DNA from: an uncultured Bacteroidales bacterium
Lineage (GTDB): Bacteria > Bacteroidota > Bacteroidia > Bacteroidales > UBA932
Direction: 5' to 3'
Assembly (NCBI GenBank): GCA_944326235.1
Contig: CALVDH010000004.1
Location: 1 to 64,000 of the forward strand
DNA length: 64,000 nucleotides
Shown here piece by piece: positions 754 through 10,802 of this stretch; the first letter of the stretch is position 1, and each line of letters starts with the position of its first letter. Made by a program: the position numbers and the translations under genes. The notes below the pieces were generated by a model. It was not told where the DNA came from. It was given only the letters and a program-made list of their open reading frames with translations, and made no database searches.

Positions 754-936
754 AGTAATTTTTTATATTGTCCAGCGCCTTACGGGAAAGTCTCCGAGTA
801 CTTTGAGCGGATCTGCCGGCGGCCATTTCATATTTCAGATATTAAACCGGGTGCAAACTTATAAAAATTCATCCATGTTTATCGTCATTTCATCCCAAAT
901 AATCGTTTTGTTCCCGGATTTGTCTTCGATTTGTAA

Positions 937-944
937 TATCTTTG
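937..944 (+). promoter_or_regulatory. Bacteroidetes -7 box for the GH97 gene
   Basis: TATCTTTG matches TAnnTTTG and lies 26 bases before the ATG at 971. Its position supports 971 rather than 803 as the start of the GH97 gene. Confidence 0.6.
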
Positions 945-970
945 TTAGCAATTATAAAACACAAACTGAG

Positions 971-3229
971 ATGAAAAGACTGCTTGCAATGAGCGCGGCC
1001 GCGATGATGAGTGCGGCTGCGATGGCGGCACCCGGAGCAGGAGCCGCAAAGAGCGACAGCCTGAGCCTGCTGTCACCCGACAAGAAACTGGAGCTCAACT
1101 TCTATCTTACAGACAAAGGGGAGCCCTTCTACTCCCTGAAATTCAACGGACAGAATGTCATAGATGACAGCCGCCTCGGATTCGACATACGCCACGAGGG
1201 CGGAGTCAGCGACATCCAGCCCTTCATGAACGGCTGGGAAGTCAAGGAAAGCAACACCGCCCTCCGGCCTTCACAGATGCGTGAGGGCTTCATACTGGAC
1301 AGCACCGCCCGCACGACAGTCGACTACACCTGGGAGCCCGTCTGGGGTGAGGAGAAAGAGATCCGCGACCACCACAACGAACTGGCCGTGTACCTCCGCC
1401 AGCCCATGAGCTCCGCATTCGGCACAGAAACGGACGGAGACCGCATGATTGTCATCCGCTTCCGTCTCTTCAACGACGGGCTCGGCTTCCGCTACGAGTT
1501 TCCCAAGCAGAAGACCCTCGGCTACTTCATTGTCCGCAACGAGCTGACGGAGTTTACCTTCCACGAGGACCTCACCACCTTCTGGATTGCCGGTGACTAC
1601 GACTCCAACGAATTCATCTACGAGACCTCGCCCATGAGCCGGATTGCCGCCCTCTACCCGGACTTCGACCGCAGCGGCAACGCCTGCATCTGCCCCATGC
1701 CCGTGCCCGGAGTGCAGACCCCGGTGATGTTCAAGCGTGACGGCGGCGGACTCTACGTCAATATCCATGAGGCAGCCCTGGTCAACTTCCCCGCCATGCA
1801 GCTTGAGGTGCAGGACGCCGGAGAGGGCCGCACCAAGTTCGTCTCCCACCTCGTACCCGACGCCCTCGGCAACAGGGGGCACGTCCAGACACCCCAGACC
1901 ACACCCTGGAGAACCATCATCGTTACTGACAACGCTCCCGCCATCCTCGAGAGCCGTCTGATCCTCAACCTCAACGAGCCCTGCGCCATCGAGGACACCG
2001 ACTGGATCCGTCCCCAGAAATTTGCAGGAGTATGGTGGCAGATGTTCGCCCCCGGACGCGGCACCTGGAGCTACACCAACGAGCCCAACGTCCAGCTCGG
2101 CATCACCGACTACACCAGGACCACCCCTAACGGCACCCACGCCGCCAACACCGAGAACGTCAAGAAGTACATAGATTTCGCAGCCGCCAACAACATCCAG
2201 GGAGTCCTTGTCGAGGGCTGGAACCAGGGCTGGGAAGACTGGTTCGGCCAGTTCAAGGAGTTCGTATTCGACTTCCTCACCCCCTACCCCGACTTCGATG
2301 TGGCCGAGCTCCGTGACTACGCCAAGAGCAAGGGTGTCCAGCTTGTCATGCACCACGAAACTTCCGGCTCGACCCTCAACTACGAGCGTTACCTCGACCG
2401 GGCATACCAGTTCATGAAGGACAACAACTACTCCGTAGTCAAGAGCGGCTACGTAGGTCCCATCATCCCCCGCGGTGCACACCACTACGACCAGTCCACG
2501 GTCAACCACTTCCTGCACTGCATCAGACGTGCCGCCGACTACCAGATCATGATAGACGCCCACGAGCCCGTAAGACCCACCGGACTGCACCGCACCTGGC
2601 CCAACTACCTGGCAGCCGAGTCCGCCCGCGGCACCGAGTTCGAGTCCTCCGACGCCATAGGCAACCCTCCCGAGCACACCACCATCCTGCCCTTCACCCG
2701 TATCATGGGCGGCCCGATGGACTACACCCCCGGCATTTTCCAGCAGGACATGAAATACTACGACGAGAATGCCAAGGGCCACATCCACACCACACTGGTA
2801 AAGCAGCTGGCCCTCTACGTAGTGCTGTACTCCCCCCTGCAGATGGTAGCCGACCTGCCCGAGAACTACGAGCGCTTCCCCGATGCCTTCACCTTCATCC
2901 GCAACGTACCCACCGACTGGGACTACACCAAGGTGCTGGAGGCCGAGCCGGGCGACTACATCACCACAGCCCGCAAGGCCAAGGGTGAGGACAAATGGTA
3001 CATCGGTGCCATCACCGACGAGAATGAGCGCACTGCGACCATCGACTTCTCCAAGCTGCCCCTGACCAAAGGCAAGCAGTACACCGCCACCATCTACGCC
3101 GACGGAGAGGACGCATCCTGGGACGAGAATCCCCAGAGCTACAAGATCTCCGAGACCCTCGTCACCTCCGACTCCAAGCTGGAGATCCCCCTTGCCCGCA
3201 GCGGTGGCGTCGCTATCGAACTTCGCTAG
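971..3229 (+). CDS. Glycoside hydrolase family 97 (SusB-like alpha-glucosidase)
   Basis: A 752-residue exported protein. The start at 971 begins an Ala/Met-rich signal peptide of about 28 residues and follows a promoter box; the frame is open upstream to 803 but without signal-like sequence. The order is the GH97 one: N-terminal beta-sandwich, then a (beta/alpha)8 barrel with VEGWN, HHET and AHEPVRPTG blocks, then a C-terminal beta domain. The Glu in VEGWN and the downstream Glu residues resemble the inverting, Ca2+-dependent alpha-glucosidase branch (B. thetaiotaomicron SusB) rather than the retaining alpha-galactosidase branch, which has an Asp nucleophile. It should release glucose from alpha-glucans in the periplasm. 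No SusC/SusD genes lie beside it. A terminator follows. Confidence 0.93.
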   Translation: MKRLLAMSAAAMMSAAAMAAPGAGAAKSDSLSLLSPDKKLELNFYLTDKGEPFYSLKFNGQNVIDDSRLGFDIRHEGGVSDIQPFMNGWEVKESNTALRPSQMREGFILDSTARTTVDYTWEPVWGEEKEIRDHHNELAVYLRQPMSSAFGTETDGDRMIVIRFRLFNDGLGFRYEFPKQKTLGYFIVRNELTEFTFHEDLTTFWIAGDYDSNEFIYETSPMSRIAALYPDFDRSGNACICPMPVPGVQTPVMFKRDGGGLYVNIHEAALVNFPAMQLEVQDAGEGRTKFVSHLVPDALGNRGHVQTPQTTPWRTIIVTDNAPAILESRLILNLNEPCAIEDTDWIRPQKFAGVWWQMFAPGRGTWSYTNEPNVQLGITDYTRTTPNGTHAANTENVKKYIDFAAANNIQGVLVEGWNQGWEDWFGQFKEFVFDFLTPYPDFDVAELRDYAKSKGVQLVMHHETSGSTLNYERYLDRAYQFMKDNNYSVVKSGYVGPIIPRGAHHYDQSTVNHFLHCIRRAADYQIMIDAHEPVRPTGLHRTWPNYLAAESARGTEFESSDAIGNPPEHTTILPFTRIMGGPMDYTPGIFQQDMKYYDENAKGHIHTTLVKQLALYVVLYSPLQMVADLPENYERFPDAFTFIRNVPTDWDYTKVLEAEPGDYITTARKAKGEDKWYIGAITDENERTATIDFSKLPLTKGKQYTATIYADGEDASWDENPQSYKISETLVTSDSKLEIPLARSGGVAIELR

Positions 3230-3245
3230 CCAGCCATCAGATATG

Positions 3246-3286
3246 AAAACAGGGTGCCGTCTCATTCCGCACGGAACCCTGTTTTT
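3246..3286. terminator. Intrinsic terminator after GH97
   Basis: The hairpin has arms AAACAGGGTgCCGT and ACGGaACCCTGTTT with a 10-nt loop, followed by T residues. It separates GH97 from the convergent propeller operon and is T-tailed for the plus strand. Confidence 0.8.
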
Positions 3287-3306
3287 CATTATCGCGTATA
3301 CCCGTC

Positions 3307-4398
3307 TTATTTCAAATAGATTGTAAAGAGCGTTGTCGTACCGTCTTCATTGAAGCGGGACCAGTAGAGGACATTGTCCTTAATATATTGAGGGAAAATC
3401 CCATACCTATGACCGTCAAACCGCAGGATAAAACCCTCATCAACGCTACTCTCGTATTCTTCAAGACTATAGCGGTAATGCGAGATTCTATGGCCGTCAG
3501 TCATATCGTAAATATCATAGTACCAGCACATACCTTCCTGGTGCAGGTACTGGAGCAGATAGTACTTCCCGCAAATGCCATAATATTCCGTTTGGAAAAA
3601 CTTCTCTTTCTGTCCCTCGTCAATTGAAGCCCGTACTTCTGCCGGCTCGGCATAACGTCCGAAATCCAACCTGAGATATGGCTCGTAGGAGACACTGTCA
3701 ATAACGTAATACGTGTACTCTCCAAAAGGCTTGTACATTACCCTGCCATTGTAAATGTCCATACCTTCCACACGCGTAAGTCCTTCTGTAGGGCGCTGCG
3801 CATCGTTAAACAGGGGCATTATCCGGTTCACAGGATTAAAACAGCTGTCCAGGATTGTAATGCTGAACTCCCTGTTAAAGTCCGATATACCGCTGGCAGC
3901 GTAGATATTCCAGCCAATGGGCAGGATATATCCCGAAACAGAGACTTCACCGTTCCTGATCTCTTCCTTAAAATTTCCATCTGCATCAAGCCTTATTACT
4001 TTATTATAAAGATCCAGCAACAGGATCTCGTCACGATATTGGTCGTAGACGCAGGTCATCAGATTGACAAATTCTCCGGGGCCGCGCCCTACCCTGGCCG
4101 AAGTACTTATAACCTCTCCGTCATGACCAAGTATCACTATGATATTATCCGCCGTCATACCGAAAAGCCTGTCCTCAGACACTCCGAATATGCTGATATC
4201 GTACAAAGAATCTGTTTTAAATGTCATAGTGTCTATCTTAAGCGCAATACTCTCGAGCCCAAGAGTGTCTGTCCTATTGACATCCCTGCCCACCTTGATG
4301 ACGTAAGAACTCTGTTCCGCACACGAGCACAAAAGGCATACAGACAAGACCACTGCCGCGCATGCCTTCAGAGACATACATACATTATTCATTATCAT
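3307..4398 (-). CDS. 6-bladed beta-propeller lipoprotein (second copy)
   Basis: A protein of about 363 residues with a signal ending in lipobox LLCSC (Cys26 if the first Met is used; Met8 at 4377 is an equally good start). Downstream come repeated beta-strand segments with Asp-x-Asp-Gly turns (for example RLDADGNF and ILGHDGEV), the pattern of the Bacteroidetes 6-bladed beta-propeller family. No enzymatic motif is seen; these proteins are thought to bind or present ligands, but the function is unproven. It is the last gene of a four-gene minus-strand operon and its 5' end overlaps the preceding propeller gene by 14 nt, so translation is probably coupled. Base composition is more AT-rich than the flanks. 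Confidence 0.75.
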   Translation of the reverse strand: MIMNNVCMSLKACAAVVLSVCLLCSCAEQSSYVIKVGRDVNRTDTLGLESIALKIDTMTFKTDSLYDISIFGVSEDRLFGMTADNIIVILGHDGEVISTSARVGRGPGEFVNLMTCVYDQYRDEILLLDLYNKVIRLDADGNFKEEIRNGEVSVSGYILPIGWNIYAASGISDFNREFSITILDSCFNPVNRIMPLFNDAQRPTEGLTRVEGMDIYNGRVMYKPFGEYTYYVIDSVSYEPYLRLDFGRYAEPAEVRASIDEGQKEKFFQTEYYGICGKYYLLQYLHQEGMCWYYDIYDMTDGHRISHYRYSLEEYESSVDEGFILRFDGHRYGIFPQYIKDNVLYWSRFNEDGTTTLFTIYLK

Positions 4399-5488
4399 TT
4401 TTCTTTATTGAGTATACCGCAAACGCCAGTTCGTCCTCCTGAGTCAGGAGCTGGATATTCAAACCAGCCTGTGATACGAAAACTGAATAGCGGAAAACCG
4501 AGTAAATCTCGTCCTCCAAGTCACTTTCGCCTATAATGCGGAAGTTCTCATCCATAATGATGACTGCAAGTTTTTTGGCCTTGTTGGAGAGGTTGACCCC
4601 AGGCATAGGAGTGCTTTTCTCCACAATTCTGTAATAAACGTTCTTCCACTGGTCGTAGAGAATGTTCCCATACGATGTAATCTCACGGAAATACTCTATC
4701 TCACGCGCATTGGAGACCGTCATGGAACCAATGAGTCCTCTGGTAAGGGGTTTGATACCGTCATCCCAATACTTGCTTCCGGCGTAATATATCCTGACTT
4801 GCCTGGTATTCAGATTAAGGACATGAATATTGTTGTCGGCAGGAAAGCCCACAACAACCAACGAATCCCCGCTATTATATGCCGTATACGGTATACGCAT
4901 CAGCAAAGCACCATAGAAGTCCCGATATATATCCGGATAAGGAATCATTTTCTCTGTAACACGCCCCTCTGACTTGTCCACTGCTGCCAATGTAAAATCT
5001 CCTGTGGTGCTACTGGAATAAAGCAGGCCATCCTGAGTCACGTAAGGTTGCCCCTGAGCACCCGGCATGATGTCCGAATCAGCATCTATGCCGTACACAG
5101 CCAACTCGGAACCTTCTCTGTCTATAAGCGTTATTGTATGCCTGTTCATAAGATCCAGTATATACACGCTGTCCGGTGAAACCACATTCATGCTCCACGG
5201 TGCTACCGGTGTCTTTATCCTGACCGGAGACTTCACCGTACTGTCAATATGAAAACGCTCGATATATCCGGTTATCCTGTTGTAGAAATAGTAATACCCG
5301 CTGCCGTCGTAAAATGTACATTGCATCAGCGGCGATGTCTCATCATCCAATTCCAGCCTCACTACATCAGTTCTGGCAAGAAATACCGAGTCCAGCCTGT
5401 CCTGGTGCACGACATCTGTAGCAGCGTCATGAGCGCAGCCTACATTCAAGACTGCGCTCATAATTCCCCAAAAAAGAAGCCTCTTCAT
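4385..5488 (-). CDS. 6-bladed beta-propeller lipoprotein (first copy)
   Basis: About 367 residues. The start at 5488 is chosen because it opens a clean lipoprotein signal (MKRLLFW... LNVGC); a 32-codon upstream extension would overlap the small peptide gene. The rest has repeating strand-turn-strand units (YIERFHIDS, HTITLIDREGS, NIHVLNLNTRQ) like the 6-bladed propeller lipoproteins of gut Bacteroidales. The gap to the upstream peptide gene is only 4 nt, and the downstream paralogue overlaps by 14 nt. Two diverged propellers in tandem suggest two related receptors or a heteromeric surface protein; this is inference. Confidence 0.75.
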   Translation of the reverse strand: MKRLLFWGIMSAVLNVGCAHDAATDVVHQDRLDSVFLARTDVVRLELDDETSPLMQCTFYDGSGYYYFYNRITGYIERFHIDSTVKSPVRIKTPVAPWSMNVVSPDSVYILDLMNRHTITLIDREGSELAVYGIDADSDIMPGAQGQPYVTQDGLLYSSSTTGDFTLAAVDKSEGRVTEKMIPYPDIYRDFYGALLMRIPYTAYNSGDSLVVVGFPADNNIHVLNLNTRQVRIYYAGSKYWDDGIKPLTRGLIGSMTVSNAREIEYFREITSYGNILYDQWKNVYYRIVEKSTPMPGVNLSNKAKKLAVIIMDENFRIIGESDLEDEIYSVFRYSVFVSQAGLNIQLLTQEDELAFAVYSIKKNDNE

Positions 5489-5492
5489 TTTA

Positions 5493-5732
5493 TTAACTCT
5501 CAGCAGCGCTTGCACTGTCGTGTTTTTCACAGTCCTTACTTTGGAGAAATTTCTTGTTTGCACAGAAATAATTTGTCCCATCACTCACGCAATGACCATT
5601 GTTATGTTCTTTTGTCATGTTGTTGCATCCTCCTGTAGAAGTTATAGGAGACGCATAAATCAGTCCACCGGCTAAAACAAGTGCAGATAATGTCGCTGCG
5701 GTAGCGATTCTAAATTTACAAATCTTTTTCAT
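5493..5732 (-). CDS. Small secreted four-cysteine peptide (NVEALA-like)
   Basis: A 79-residue product. The N-terminus is basic, followed by a hydrophobic signal to about residue 28 (LVLAGGLIYAS). The mature part is short, polar and Cys-rich, with four cysteines in about 30 residues (contexts GGC, GHC, YFC, KDC), enough for two disulfides, and a Ser/Ala tail. Size, signal and position upstream of 6-bladed propeller genes resemble the NVEALA peptide genes of Bacteroidales, although the NVEALA signature itself is absent. It sits 12 nt after the thioredoxin-fold lipoprotein gene, which could oxidise or reduce its disulfides. No function is known. Confidence 0.6.
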   Translation of the reverse strand: MKKICKFRIATAATLSALVLAGGLIYASPITSTGGCNNMTKEHNNGHCVSDGTNYFCANKKFLQSKDCEKHDSASAAES

Positions 5733-5744
5733 AACGAATTATAT

Positions 5745-6212
5745 TTAATGGTTAATGGATTTTCTTATTTCCATAAATGCAGCTTGCCTTACAGATTGCC
5801 AAATCAACGCTGATGCTTTTCCATTTTTCATAACGAAAACACAAGGATATATCTGTTTATTCTGAGGCAATAGCGAAAGGAATTCATTATCGTAATCAAA
5901 CACAGTATTATCGTAATTAATGTTTACTTTATGCTTCAAAATCTTGTTTGATATTATATTACAAAAAACAAATACTATATCGTCATTTTGCGAAAACTCA
6001 TTGTAAAAATTCTCTGCCTGAGTGATACATGTTCCACAACCTTGCTCAGGTATTACAACTATAAATTTTACAGAATCAAGGTTCTTTGCGAAATTCTCTT
6101 CTAAGTAAAGATTCACATTTGAGAGCACTTCTGAATCTGACTCAGAACAGGAGGTAAAAAATATTCCTAAGATTAATATTGCATAAATTATGTTTCTCAT
6201 AGTAAAAGTCAT
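5745..6212 (-). CDS. Thioredoxin-fold lipoprotein with CGTC motif
   Basis: A 155-residue protein with a lipoprotein signal (FFTSC, Cys22; Met5 at 6200 is an alternative start). After a strand reading VKFIVVIPE comes a CxxC motif, CGTC (Cys59, Cys62), as in thiol-disulfide oxidoreductases. A later YPCVFVMKNGK segment fits the strand that follows the cis-Pro turn of the fold. It is clearly more AT-rich than the surrounding genome and is the first gene of the peptide/propeller operon. The likely role is handling disulfides in the envelope, perhaps those of the four-Cys peptide encoded 12 nt downstream; that link is inference. Confidence 0.65.
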   Translation of the reverse strand: MTFTMRNIIYAILILGIFFTSCSESDSEVLSNVNLYLEENFAKNLDSVKFIVVIPEQGCGTCITQAENFYNEFSQNDDIVFVFCNIISNKILKHKVNINYDNTVFDYDNEFLSLLPQNKQIYPCVFVMKNGKASALIWQSVRQAAFMEIRKSINH

Positions 6213-6286
6213 TACTACTTAGATGTAATTTTATGGATTTTCGTTGCTTCAAAGCATGCGAAATTACATTATACAAACAATATCAA

Positions 6287-6328
6287 TTGGCCCGCAGCGG
6301 CGACGGCGCAGCCATAGAGCTCCGCTAA
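6287..6328 (+). pseudogene. Remnant of a second GH97 3' end
   Basis: Thirteen codons plus TAA read LARSGDGAAIELR, almost the same as the last 12 residues of the complete GH97 gene at 3229 (LARSGGVAIELR). The codons differ at several third positions and there is one extra residue, so this is a paralogue or orthologue end rather than a recent copy. No coding continuity exists upstream, where sequence is AT-rich. As with the full gene, a terminator follows at once. Confidence 0.65.
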
Positions 6329-6417: not shown

Positions 6418-6744
6418 CTACAGCACGACTTCTATTTTCAACTTTCCGCCAAGTCCACGTTCCACTATATCATACAGTGTCTTCAGCGTAATATTCTCCC
6501 CGTCATTTTCCACCTTTGATATAAAGGTACGCTTTTTGTCTATCCTGCTGGCCAGCTCTGCCTGCGTCATCTTCTTTGTCTCCCTTGCACTGCGTATTTT
6601 AAGTCCTACATGAAGAGCCTCCAGTTCACGCTCTATCCTATCACGTTCAGGCGTACCGGGCTGACCATAATACTCGTCTTTGATTTGATCCAGTGTTTTT
6701 ATATTCATGTCTTCAATCATTACTTTTCTCTTCGTAATATTCAT
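6418..6744 (-). CDS. XRE-family antitoxin (HigA-like)
   Basis: 108 residues with a helix-turn-helix of the XRE/Cro type in the C-terminal half (MTQAELASRIDKKRTFISKVE) preceded by an alpha-helical segment. It overlaps the 3' end of the RelE-type toxin gene by up to 32 nt; Met9 (6720) would reduce this to 8 nt and is plausible. Antitoxin downstream of toxin is the HigBA order. It should neutralise the toxin and repress the pair's promoter. Confidence 0.8.
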   Translation of the reverse strand: MNITKRKVMIEDMNIKTLDQIKDEYYGQPGTPERDRIERELEALHVGLKIRSARETKKMTQAELASRIDKKRTFISKVENDGENITLKTLYDIVERGLGGKLKIEVVL

Positions 6745-7057
6745 TCATAAGCCTTACTGCACGGTTTATCTCCTCTTTCGGAGTCCTTTGCGTCTTCTTC
6801 TGAAAACCTGTCAATAATATAACCAACCTGCCTCCGTCGAAGAAACAAAAGATTCGGAATATGTTTCCACCCAACTGTACCCGTATCTCAAAAAGGCCAC
6901 TTGTCCCCTCAATATGCTTCAGATACGTTAAAGGTATCCGTTCCACTTGCTCAATGATATCAAGAATCTTGATTATCTTGTCCCTGACCCTTTGCGGCTG
7001 CGCGATAAAGAACTCCTCAAAATATCCCTTATATGTTACTACCTCCCTTACCTTCAT
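6713..7057 (-). CDS. RelE/HigB-type toxin of a toxin-antitoxin pair
   Basis: 114 residues with the RelE/HigB (phage Gp49-like) pattern: an N-terminal helical part, then the strands LFEIRVQLGGNIFRIFCFFDGGRLVILLTGFQKKTQRTP ending in a helix rich in charged residues. Family members cleave mRNA at the ribosome; the basic/aromatic strand region RIFCFF...FQKK is the usual active surface. It is the first gene of a two-gene operon. A promoter box ends 5 nt before the ATG, so the message may be leaderless. Confidence 0.82.
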   Translation of the reverse strand: MKVREVVTYKGYFEEFFIAQPQRVRDKIIKILDIIEQVERIPLTYLKHIEGTSGLFEIRVQLGGNIFRIFCFFDGGRLVILLTGFQKKTQRTPKEEINRAVRLMNEYYEEKSND

Positions 7058-7098: not shown

Positions 7099-8709
7099 CT
7101 ATTCACAGCTGACCCCGGCGGCCCAGTAAGCAGCAGTGAGTTTTTCGCCCGTGGCACGGCTGATCATCTCGTTCCAGGGATGGAGTTTGCCAGGGGCGAA
7201 AATGTTTTCTGTCAGCCAGCGGCCGACTTCGGGGCAGCCGGTGTAGGAGTCGAGGGCCATATCTCCGCTCCTGGTGATGTGCTCCACGATATAGCGGTGC
7301 ATCTGTGAGGCGAAGAGCTCGCCCATCTGGTAGTTGTGGTAGTAGCAGGGATAGAGGGCGATGTGAATCTTCGCGGCCCAGTCCGGCTCGTCGCGGCCCT
7401 CGGGGTACGTAAGCAGCTGATACTTCTCCACAAGACTGCGCCACAAGGCATTGAGGTCCTGTTCCGGGTCGGCGTACATGGCCTTCTCGAAGCGGTAGAC
7501 CACCTGCATGAAGCGGGACTGAACGAGCTGGCTCAGACGGGCGGAGCGTCGGCAGTCGGGGGCAATGCGGGCGGCCTCTTCGGCGGAAATTCCGAGGTTG
7601 AGCCGCATCCACTCCGGGTTGCGCGACAGGCGGCCGAACATCATGGCCACGCCCTCGGTGGTGAAAATACCGGCGGCCTCCCGCAGCAGGAAGGGCAACT
7701 CCGGGTTGGCGTCGTGCCCGGCGCTGTAGGCGGCATGTCCGAACTCGTGCAGCATGGTCTCCATCCACCGCTCGTTGTCAGTGAGGTTGCACAGCACCCG
7801 CACATCCCCCATACAGTCCATGTCGATGCAGAAGGCGTGCTGGTTCTTGCCCTCGCGGGGATAGAGGTCGCTGCGGCGGAGCATAGGCTCCACGTCCAGG
7901 CCGATGCTGCGGTAATAATCCACGGTCAACCGCTCCAGGTCCCTGCCCTTGTAGTAACTGTCGAAGTCCACTGGATACAAGTCCGGCGCCTCCTGGAAGA
8001 ACCGCTCCTGATAGTGCCAGGGCCTGAGTTCCATAGGGTCAATGCCGCAGCGGCGGGCCATCGCCCCGTCCACCTCCTCCTTCACGGCGGCGAAGCTGTC
8101 ACGGGAGAGGGCGTCCACCTCGTTCATAAGCAGCTCCACCTCCCGGGGCTTCTCCCCGCTGAGCATCAGGCTCATCGAGTGATAATTGGTGAATCCGAGG
8201 GCATCCGCCAGCTGATTGCGCAGCCGCACGACTTCCAGAATATCGCCTGCCACCTCCCGGCCGACGGCCTTGTGCGCCTCCCAGACATCCCGGAGCTCCG
8301 CAGAGTCCGGGGAGGTCCGCAGCAGCCGCTCCACCTCATTGTCATTGATCCTGCGGCCGCGGAAATCCGCCCGGAAAGCGGCATACTTCCGCTCCAGGAC
8401 CGTCTCCTTCTCAATGATGGCCCCCAGCAGGGACCTCTCGGCCTGACGGGCGAGGAAACTGTTGTACAGTTCATCCAGCTGCCGCCGCAGCAGAGGGTCC
8501 GTAACACTCCCGGACTCCTTGATCCGGTGCAGTTCCTCAAAGGTCCTGCGGTCCGAGAACAGTTCCGCTATTTTCTTGTTTATCTCTGCATAACGGTCGA
8601 ATGCCGCAGCATTTCCCGTCGTCGTTCCCTCCCAATAGGCCTCGGAGGACGCCTTGACCAGCGGCGCATACGCTGCCACCGTCCTGTCTATTATTTCCTG
8701 TAATTCCAT
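7099..8709 (-). CDS. M3/M2-type zinc metallopeptidase
   Basis: 536 residues from Met at 8709 (Met at 8715 is two codons earlier; both follow a terminator). The zinc motif is HEFGHA with a downstream Glu in EGVAMMFGR, the gluzincin arrangement of thimet-oligopeptidase-like families M3 and M2. The N-terminal half is almost entirely helical, as expected for the clam-shaped fold that admits only short peptides. No signal peptide is seen, so it should act on oligopeptides in the cytoplasm. The gene stands alone between a terminator and the HigBA pair. The exact subfamily is uncertain. Confidence 0.85.
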   Translation of the reverse strand: MELQEIIDRTVAAYAPLVKASSEAYWEGTTTGNAAAFDRYAEINKKIAELFSDRRTFEELHRIKESGSVTDPLLRRQLDELYNSFLARQAERSLLGAIIEKETVLERKYAAFRADFRGRRINDNEVERLLRTSPDSAELRDVWEAHKAVGREVAGDILEVVRLRNQLADALGFTNYHSMSLMLSGEKPREVELLMNEVDALSRDSFAAVKEEVDGAMARRCGIDPMELRPWHYQERFFQEAPDLYPVDFDSYYKGRDLERLTVDYYRSIGLDVEPMLRRSDLYPREGKNQHAFCIDMDCMGDVRVLCNLTDNERWMETMLHEFGHAAYSAGHDANPELPFLLREAAGIFTTEGVAMMFGRLSRNPEWMRLNLGISAEEAARIAPDCRRSARLSQLVQSRFMQVVYRFEKAMYADPEQDLNALWRSLVEKYQLLTYPEGRDEPDWAAKIHIALYPCYYHNYQMGELFASQMHRYIVEHITRSGDMALDSYTGCPEVGRWLTENIFAPGKLHPWNEMISRATGEKLTAAYWAAGVSCE

Positions 8710-9464: not shown

Positions 9465-10802
9465 TTACACAAACTTCAACAATCGGTTCCATCTGATATT
9501 CCGAGGGAAAGGTTTGTTGACATCCTTCGAGAACCATACCACGCGGGGTTTGCCGACGACGTGGTTCTCGGGTACGAAGCCCCAGTAGCGGGAGTCGAGA
9601 GAGTTGTGCCTGTTGTCACCCATCATGAAGTAATAGTCCATGGCGAAGGTATAATGGGTCGCGGGGCGGCCGTCAATCACTATGGTACTGTCCTGAACCT
9701 CAAGGTCATGTCCCTCGTATACGTCGATGATGCGGCGGTAGAGGGGAAGGTTCTCCAGGGTCAGGGCCACGCTGTCTCCCTTGGCCGGAATGTAGAGGGG
9801 ACCGTAGTTGTCCCTCGTCCACCGGAAGTCCTCCGTAAAGGGGAAGAGCATCAGGTAGGAATCCGGGTAGTCGGGAGGATAGGCGTCCACGTTGCGGCGG
9901 CATTCCTGAACATTGGCGACTGCAGCTATCCTGTCTGCTGCCTCCGCTGTCATGGCCATCGACGGATACCCGGGAAGGGAAGCGTCGAACCATGCGTCCG
10001 CGGTCTGGACACCGGCGTCCTCGAGTATCCTGGGATTGATCGGTGAGCCGCTGGTGACTACTCTATAGGTGTTCTGCACGCCGGGATAGGTGTCCTGGAG
10101 TTCTCCGTTGACGAAGACCTCTCCGTCACGCACCTCGAGGGTGTCTCCGGCGACTGCCACACATCTCTTCACATAGTTGTCCTCCTTGTCCACGGGCCTT
10201 ACGATCAGGGGGCCGTAAGTCCTCTCGGTGTACTCCCTGCCGTTGAACCGCACGTGGGTGTAGTAATCGTCGGCGGGCAGTTTGGCGAGGACCGTGTCCC
10301 CGTGAGGGAAGTTGAACACCACGATGTCTCCGCGCCTGACGTCACCGAAACCGGCCAGACGCCTGTAGTCGCGCTTGATAAGGTCCGAATAGGATTTCTT
10401 ACCGAAGATCGTGTTGTGGACGAAGGGTATGGAAAGAGGTCTCTCGGGCAGCTTGGGGCCATAGGCCAGCTTGCCTACAAACAAGTAGTCTCCCGTCATC
10501 AGAGTGCTCTCCATGGACGAGGAAGGTATGCGGAAAGCCTGGAGGATGAAGATGTTGAGAGGTACGACCACGATGACGGCGAAGATAATGGCGTCGAGCC
10601 AGTCCAGCCATACATTGTGCTTCTCCCCCTCCTTGTAGTTCTTCTTCCAGAAAGCCCACTTCACCTTCCTGGTGATGAAGATGTCGAAAATCACCAGGAG
10701 GCCGAGGAGCCACCAGTAATTTCCGAGCCATATCACCCAGAGGAGATAGAGGACGGCCCAGACTCCGAACCGGAACCACTTATTATGCAGGAGCTCTTTC
10801 AC
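9465..10802 (-). CDS. lepB: Signal peptidase I
   Basis: 445 residues. Two hydrophobic segments lie near the N-terminus (about 12-43) and one at about 70-90, just before the catalytic box RIPSSSMEST with nucleophile Ser96. A second conserved block contains the general base Lys in YVKRCVAVAGD, and a third reads MMGDNRHNSLDSRYWG. The insert between the Lys box and the last box is long, as is usual in Bacteroidetes. It removes signal peptides of Sec-exported proteins at the inner membrane. It lies 17 nt downstream of rplT and is probably co-transcribed with the thrS operon. Confidence 0.96.
   Translation of the reverse strand: MKELLHNKWFRFGVWAVLYLLWVIWLGNYWWLLGLLVIFDIFITRKVKWAFWKKNYKEGEKHNVWLDWLDAIIFAVIVVVPLNIFILQAFRIPSSSMESTLMTGDYLFVGKLAYGPKLPERPLSIPFVHNTIFGKKSYSDLIKRDYRRLAGFGDVRRGDIVVFNFPHGDTVLAKLPADDYYTHVRFNGREYTERTYGPLIVRPVDKEDNYVKRCVAVAGDTLEVRDGEVFVNGELQDTYPGVQNTYRVVTSGSPINPRILEDAGVQTADAWFDASLPGYPSMAMTAEAADRIAAVANVQECRRNVDAYPPDYPDSYLMLFPFTEDFRWTRDNYGPLYIPAKGDSVALTLENLPLYRRIIDVYEGHDLEVQDSTIVIDGRPATHYTFAMDYYFMMGDNRHNSLDSRYWGFVPENHVVGKPRVVWFSKDVNKPFPRNIRWNRLLKFV

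Follow-up and report, generated by a model that had tools for sequence, protein, structure and literature searches.

What is the function of a four-gene operon in which a small exported peptide with four cysteines is encoded next to a CxxC lipoprotein and two propeller lipoproteins? The operon is located on the minus strand of the window, the whole stretch of 64,000 nucleotides analysed here. Its first gene encodes the CxxC lipoprotein P0001 (5745-6212, 155 amino acids), which has the lipobox FTSC and a CGTC motif at residues 59-62. It is followed by the gene of the cysteine peptide P0002 (5493-5732, 79 amino acids), with a Sec-type leader and cysteines 36, 48, 57 and 68 in the mature part, and directly downstream by those of the propeller lipoproteins P0003 (4385-5488, 367 amino acids) and P0004 (3307-4398, 363 amino acids). 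The genes are separated by gaps of 12 and 4 nt, and the last two overlap by 14 nt; reading of the sequence confirmed this layout, as described in the initial annotation, to the base. Both proteins that it had called propellers matched a Pfam family above the curated cut-off: P0003 belongs to DUF4221 (PF13970; E 6e-15, 56.2 bits, cut-off 23.4) and P0004 to DUF5128, a "6-bladed beta-propeller" (PF17170; E 2e-10, 40.6 bits, cut-off 22.9). The DUF4221 family profile matches the solved structure 3s9j (PDB) with an E value of 3e-61. An AlphaFold model of P0004 alone was of poor quality (pLDDT 38). We consider it somewhat probable that the operon was acquired horizontally and forms one module of a peptide export pathway with two steps, transport by Sec and then transport through an RND-TolC complex.

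The operon lies in an accessory insert (3231-6287) for which nine congeners show a clean, contiguous empty site when their loci, fetched via the neighbouring M3 peptidase gene, are compared by Blast. In genomes G142 and G927 window position 6288 directly adjoins 3228, and in G132 and G930 position 6419 adjoins 3230. In the five other congeners the junction connects about 7109-7121 to 3231, and a toxin-antitoxin pair at 6418-7057 is missing as well, which makes the gap between the GH97 and peptidase genes look like an insertion hot spot. This pair, upstream of the operon, is HigB/XRE-antitoxin-like. The G+C content inside the insert is 34-48%, as compared to about 60% in the flanking genes, and a homologue of the CxxC lipoprotein is present in 5 of 150 genomes of the family. 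The window cassette is a recently acquired, horizontally moved set of four genes. Direct reading of the sequence revealed no integrase gene within the insert. The insert is bordered by an imperfect direct repeat, of which the left copy (3194-3229) is the 3' end of the GH97 gene (803-3229) and the right copy (6288-6327) a diverged remnant of its last 36-39 nt, the two sharing about 85% identity in their 20-nt core. Such a duplicated 3' end resembles the footprint of integration into the 3' end of a gene. Among plasmids, P0003 matched two distantly related Phocaeicola records, neither with a peptide beside it.

A diverged copy of the whole operon is found in the same genome on contig C21 (locus L003). 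Here the gene row consists of a TPR/HTH regulator, a gene that we take to encode a DUF3244 protein, a CAGC lipoprotein, a 75-amino-acid peptide with four cysteines, a DUF4221 protein and a DUF5128 protein. The four corresponding parts are 37-50% identical to those of the window, which indicates that the set diverged as a whole. Because of this copy, and because the gene set recurs across the phylum, the operon is more than a chance arrangement, and the conserved combination of peptide, propeller and CxxC protein postulated in the initial annotation is borne out.

Homology searches gave only a weak Redoxin match for P0001 (Pfam, E 0.009, under the curated cut-off). Alignment of 25 members of its family showed that C59 and C62 are the only invariant residues, with the lipobox cysteine nearly so, and that many members have YP at the position of the likely cis-proline, where P0001 itself has Y-P-C. 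The best solved relative of the family profile is the thioredoxin oxidoreductase 8t4c (E 9e-4), with other thiol-disulfide oxidoreductases scoring more weakly. The family accordingly combines a CxxC motif, a cis-proline position and profile similarity to solved thioredoxins, as expected for a thioredoxin-like fold; the AlphaFold model, calculated from two sequences (P0001 and an Algibacter homologue), was poor (pLDDT 46). The profile was searched in 393 order-level and 395 phylum-level genomes, and wide regions around the matches were examined. In every intact locus found in this way the thioredoxin-like lipoprotein adjoins a DUF4221 propeller or is fused to it, the DUF4221 protein being its most constant partner. 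The two form a single reading frame in L018 (301-1908, 535 amino acids) and L030 (1420-3123, 567 amino acids). A further fusion candidate, L060 (2-1108), has its start cut off and an unconfirmed propeller part. A contig scan with P0003 alone yielded a marine Algibacter contig (L010) as sole relative, and this also has the thioredoxin-like gene beside DUF4221. The invariant cysteine pair, the lipobox and the natural fusions argue for the redox role that had been suggested for the lipoprotein, and we propose that P0001 is a disulfide oxidase or isomerase acting on the peptide.

The peptide itself, the proposed secreted product, matched none of the Pfam and NCBIfam models. Its leader is likely cut at YA|SP. 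The initial annotation had let its proposal depend on conservation of the four cysteines; all four are invariant in the five homologues closest to P0002 (L003, L005, L056, L049 and L052), as is one glycine among these six window-type peptides. Most homologues were reached via their neighbour genes, and an independent peptide-led search was done with the NVEALA model PF14055. DUF5128 or DUF4221 propellers occur in most loci around PF14055 matches, and the window operon has the same propeller neighbours. P0002 gave no match to PF14055 at E<=1, the window genome contains no matches at E<=0.01, and the NVEALA segment is absent from P0002. The L056 homologue, however, has this segment (QNVEALTYEEC) and scores E 0.002 against PF14055, which is under the cut-off. 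It consists of an NVEAL leader and a window-type mature part with four cysteines, and since it joins both features it connects P0002 with the NVEALA type despite the failed model match, as had been surmised. In the open literature searched we found no paper on NVEALA, DUF4221 or DUF5128, though such papers may exist.

About half of the DUF4221 genes are directly preceded by a gene for a small Sec-type peptide with at least two, and up to six, cysteines. The other half is without a detectable peptide, pairs of DUF4221 and thioredoxin-like genes without a peptide also exist, and there is a lineage of solo DUF4221 genes. In L103 (9324-12821) and L244 (5857-9328) a DUF4221 gene without peptide or CxxC gene adjoins a gene for an exported protein of 757-770 amino acids.

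The accessory, patchy distribution of the operon fits antagonism or signalling by the peptide outside the cell. One form of antagonism, in which the peptide kills competing Bacteroidota, one or both propeller lipoproteins protect the producer and export proceeds as in the two-step model, would account for an operon that is moved horizontally between few genomes and leaves empty sites, and also for variable mature parts that are paired with diverged propellers, including the tandem peptide-propeller pairs of L053, L059 and L097. We nevertheless regard such a bacteriocin with immunity as unlikely. Two identical peptides in L046 (11436-11645 and 14001-14210) adjoin two diverged propellers, and P0002 differs between two species by 4 nonsynonymous and 1 synonymous changes, which is no clear excess of amino-acid change; positive selection on P0002 was considered and dropped because there are too few differences. 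Moreover, propellers accompany even lipoprotein partners (see below), where no toxin would be released.

How would such a peptide leave the cell? Clusters that include RND permeases, an adaptor and TolC, or a signal peptidase were found at L010, L044, L046, L050, L052, L053, L057, L059 and L097/L154/L155. The exporter is composed of two adjacent RND permeases, an adaptor and TolC, and an additional signal peptidase often accompanies it. The gene order in the Algibacter locus is RND, TolC, peptide, DUF4221, thioredoxin-like lipoprotein, signal peptidase, RND, and in a Bacteroides-like genome (G312) a signal peptidase, the CxxC lipoprotein, NVEALA peptide-propeller pairs, adaptor, RND, TolC and RND follow each other on one strand. 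For background, 32 stretches of 20 kb were picked arbitrarily in these genomes; they contained one RND gene and no signal peptidases. A reverse search with permease B as sole query, blind to neighbours, gave 20 loci. Under the same rule, small secreted cysteine peptides were present at 10 of these 20 as compared to 0 of 32 background stretches (p 1e-5), and propellers at 7 of 20 as compared to 0 of 32 (p 6e-4), p-values that overstate independence since the loci share ancestry. In one of these 20 loci, L209, a signal peptidase sits between permease B and TolC. The loci come from evenly drawn but related genomes, several end at contig ends, and the local profiles were built partly from the very loci they later labelled. 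Two sets of neighbours named by eye were seen near thioredoxin-DUF4221 loci: a double-glycine-like peptide with a possible S8 protease (L053, 17760-19665) and a C39-type ABC exporter with adaptor (L058, 8766-12427). DUF1573-like proteins recur in the peptide-propeller-RND clusters L053, L097, L161 and L209.

Bacteroidota have many variable lipoprotein clusters, and the genes of lipoproteins and small proteins might merely gather in variable regions with no functional coupling; that one or more parts are missing from several loci would agree with this. A gene order that stays constant even at class and phylum distance, the natural fusions and the enrichment over background from separate search entries (thioredoxin-like lipoprotein, DUF4221, NVEALA and permease B) all speak for coupling, and we give the uncoupled reading hardly any credence. 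Maximum-likelihood analysis placed the cluster permeases in two clades, A and B, each with 100/100 support and separate from six further RND pumps encoded in the window genome. Thiol-rich peptides, CxxC proteins and RND efflux occur in metal resistance, so that the CxxC lipoprotein, the peptide and the pump might together bind and expel a metal or repair envelope proteins, and the pairs of DUF4221 and thioredoxin-like genes without a peptide could be accommodated as well. Yet the peptides showed no His/Met-rich metal motif, permeases A and B stand apart from all six other pumps, and it would be left unexplained why a variable exported peptide is so constantly associated, which makes a redox or metal defence very improbable.

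Under the two-step export model the extra signal peptidase would be a dedicated leader-cutting enzyme. It was found at 9 of about 18 loci with long leaders and at 2 of about 25 with short leaders, counts taken on contigs that are cut. That long NVEALA-type leaders require this enzyme was considered and not retained: the association is suggestive only, and L053 and L209 combine a short leader with a signal peptidase. A study of the iron stimulon of B. thetaiotaomicron lists a 6-bladed propeller (BT0664), lepB (BT0667) and an RND adaptor (BT0669) close together (PMC10434189), a grouping that, by gene names alone, matches the peptide-exporter cluster.

The window operon has neither exporter genes nor an extra signal peptidase, but the cognate RND pair, adaptor and TolC are present elsewhere in the genome. 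An operon on contig C26 (L201, 8122-19451) encodes two propellers, a 119-amino-acid protein, TolC, an adaptor and two RND permeases. Its permeases fall in clades A and B and its first propeller is 42% identical to P0004; no cysteine peptide was seen beside it. As the pair lies outside the window operon, on another contig, any export of P0002 by it would be in trans. A single signal peptidase I is encoded in the genome, among ribosomal protein genes at window positions 9465-10802. Permease B is present in all five family genomes with the thioredoxin-like gene, of which G091 has it as a broken piece adjacent to the cluster. Most congeners without the operon also retain the RND pair, from which it follows that the pair has other cargo or another role; this, the absence of exporter genes from the window locus and the DUF4221 genes without a peptide weigh against the two-step model.

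A contrast between genomes bears on what the pump does. Permease B is present in 22 of 23 genomes that have a soluble peptide beside the set, the exception being a genome of 61% completeness, and in 0 of 5 genomes in which the upstream partner of the thioredoxin-DUF4221 pair is a lipoprotein of 138-223 amino acids (Fisher p 6e-5, a hand tally by genome that ignores kinship). A cysteine core, C-x(5-8)-C-x(1-3)-[VI][VI]V, is found in 5 of 6 of these lipoproteins and in 3 soluble peptides as compared to 4 of 598 background ORFs, a comparison that is descriptive because the motif was written after these sequences had been seen. The shared core implies that the partner can also function when anchored. 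It also lends some weight to a different arrangement, in which the peptide is retained, the propeller and CxxC lipoprotein build a sensor or structure at the surface or in the periplasm, and the RND pump serves this complex. Soluble partners with the exporter and lipidated partners without it are, however, what one expects if the pump releases the soluble form, and an envelope complex appears quite unlikely to us. The simplest reading of these sequences is that the propeller and the CxxC protein would serve the partner's cysteine pair, with release of the soluble form as the task of the RND pump.

Returning to two-step export, the gene content, the conserved motifs, the fusions, the genomic linkage in both search directions and the co-occurrence are direct observations on these genomes. 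In the first step of the proposed mechanism the 79-residue prepeptide would cross the inner membrane via Sec and have its leader removed by a signal peptidase, which would be the housekeeping enzyme in this genome and probably a dedicated one at other loci. The CxxC lipoprotein would then form or isomerise the two disulfides of the peptide, with the DUF4221 propeller as substrate-holding partner. Finally, a dedicated complex of RND(A), RND(B), adaptor and TolC, encoded on contig C26 together with a P0004-like propeller, would take the oxidised peptide from the periplasm and push it out of the cell. We infer the order of these steps, the substrate relation, direct contact and secretion from the sequences. 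The initial annotation is thus supported in part, for the conserved set, the invariant cysteines, the link to NVEALA and the redox role, while its suggestion that the propellers protect or display the peptide found no support in this analysis. It had missed the exporter, including the copy elsewhere in this genome, the signal peptidase and the status of the operon as an accessory insert. More tentatively, the loci may represent a phylum-wide secretion system of Bacteroidota for small disulfide-bonded peptides, which would comprise Sec, in many lineages a dedicated signal peptidase, a propeller-thioredoxin folding pair and a heteromeric RND pump with TolC; the window cassette would then be a mobile cargo-and-folding unit that uses an exporter encoded elsewhere.

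The link to the exporter is a new finding, and the related sets with a two-pump RND exporter suggest a route, not described before, by which small peptides are matured and secreted. By tying NVEALA-type peptides to an exporter, a redox lipoprotein and a signal peptidase, it offers a concrete pathway for peptides without an assigned function, and it points to RND pumps, usually seen as drug pumps, as candidate machines for peptide secretion. Should the peptides act extracellularly, gut and marine Bacteroidota would harbor a large unstudied set of antagonists or signals.

Similar to the NVEALA loci (PF14055 with PF17170/PF13970), the window operon encodes a small Sec-exported cysteine peptide in tandem with DUF5128/DUF4221 propellers, but the NVEALA segment is missing from its peptide, the cassette is minimal and the exporter of its genome is located elsewhere. 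Bacteroidota also export small peptides by ABC/C39 peptidase systems, as for the bacteroidetocins, in which the leader of double-glycine peptides is cut by the peptidase of the exporter and Sec is bypassed; the peptides described here have Sec leaders, and the window operon contains no C39 exporter. The nearest described pathway is that of the E. coli peptide STII, which passes Sec, acquires two disulfides by DsbA in the periplasm and leaves through MacAB-TolC (review PMC5985334). The pathway proposed here is alike in having a ribosomal peptide, Sec, two periplasmic disulfides and a tripartite TolC pump. The general DsbA and ABC-type MacB of STII contrast with the dedicated CxxC lipoprotein, propeller and two-permease RND pump predicted here, and the parallel concerns the export pathway only, with no sequence relation claimed. 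RND pumps can be heteromeric, as is MdtBC, although RND heterotrimers are rare (PMC8277102). MdtABC-TolC and the exporter share the combination of one adaptor and TolC with a pair of adjacent but different RND permeases. Permeases A and B differ in forming their own clades against the pumps compared, the six others of the window genome, and in being encoded in operons with peptides, propellers and signal peptidases.
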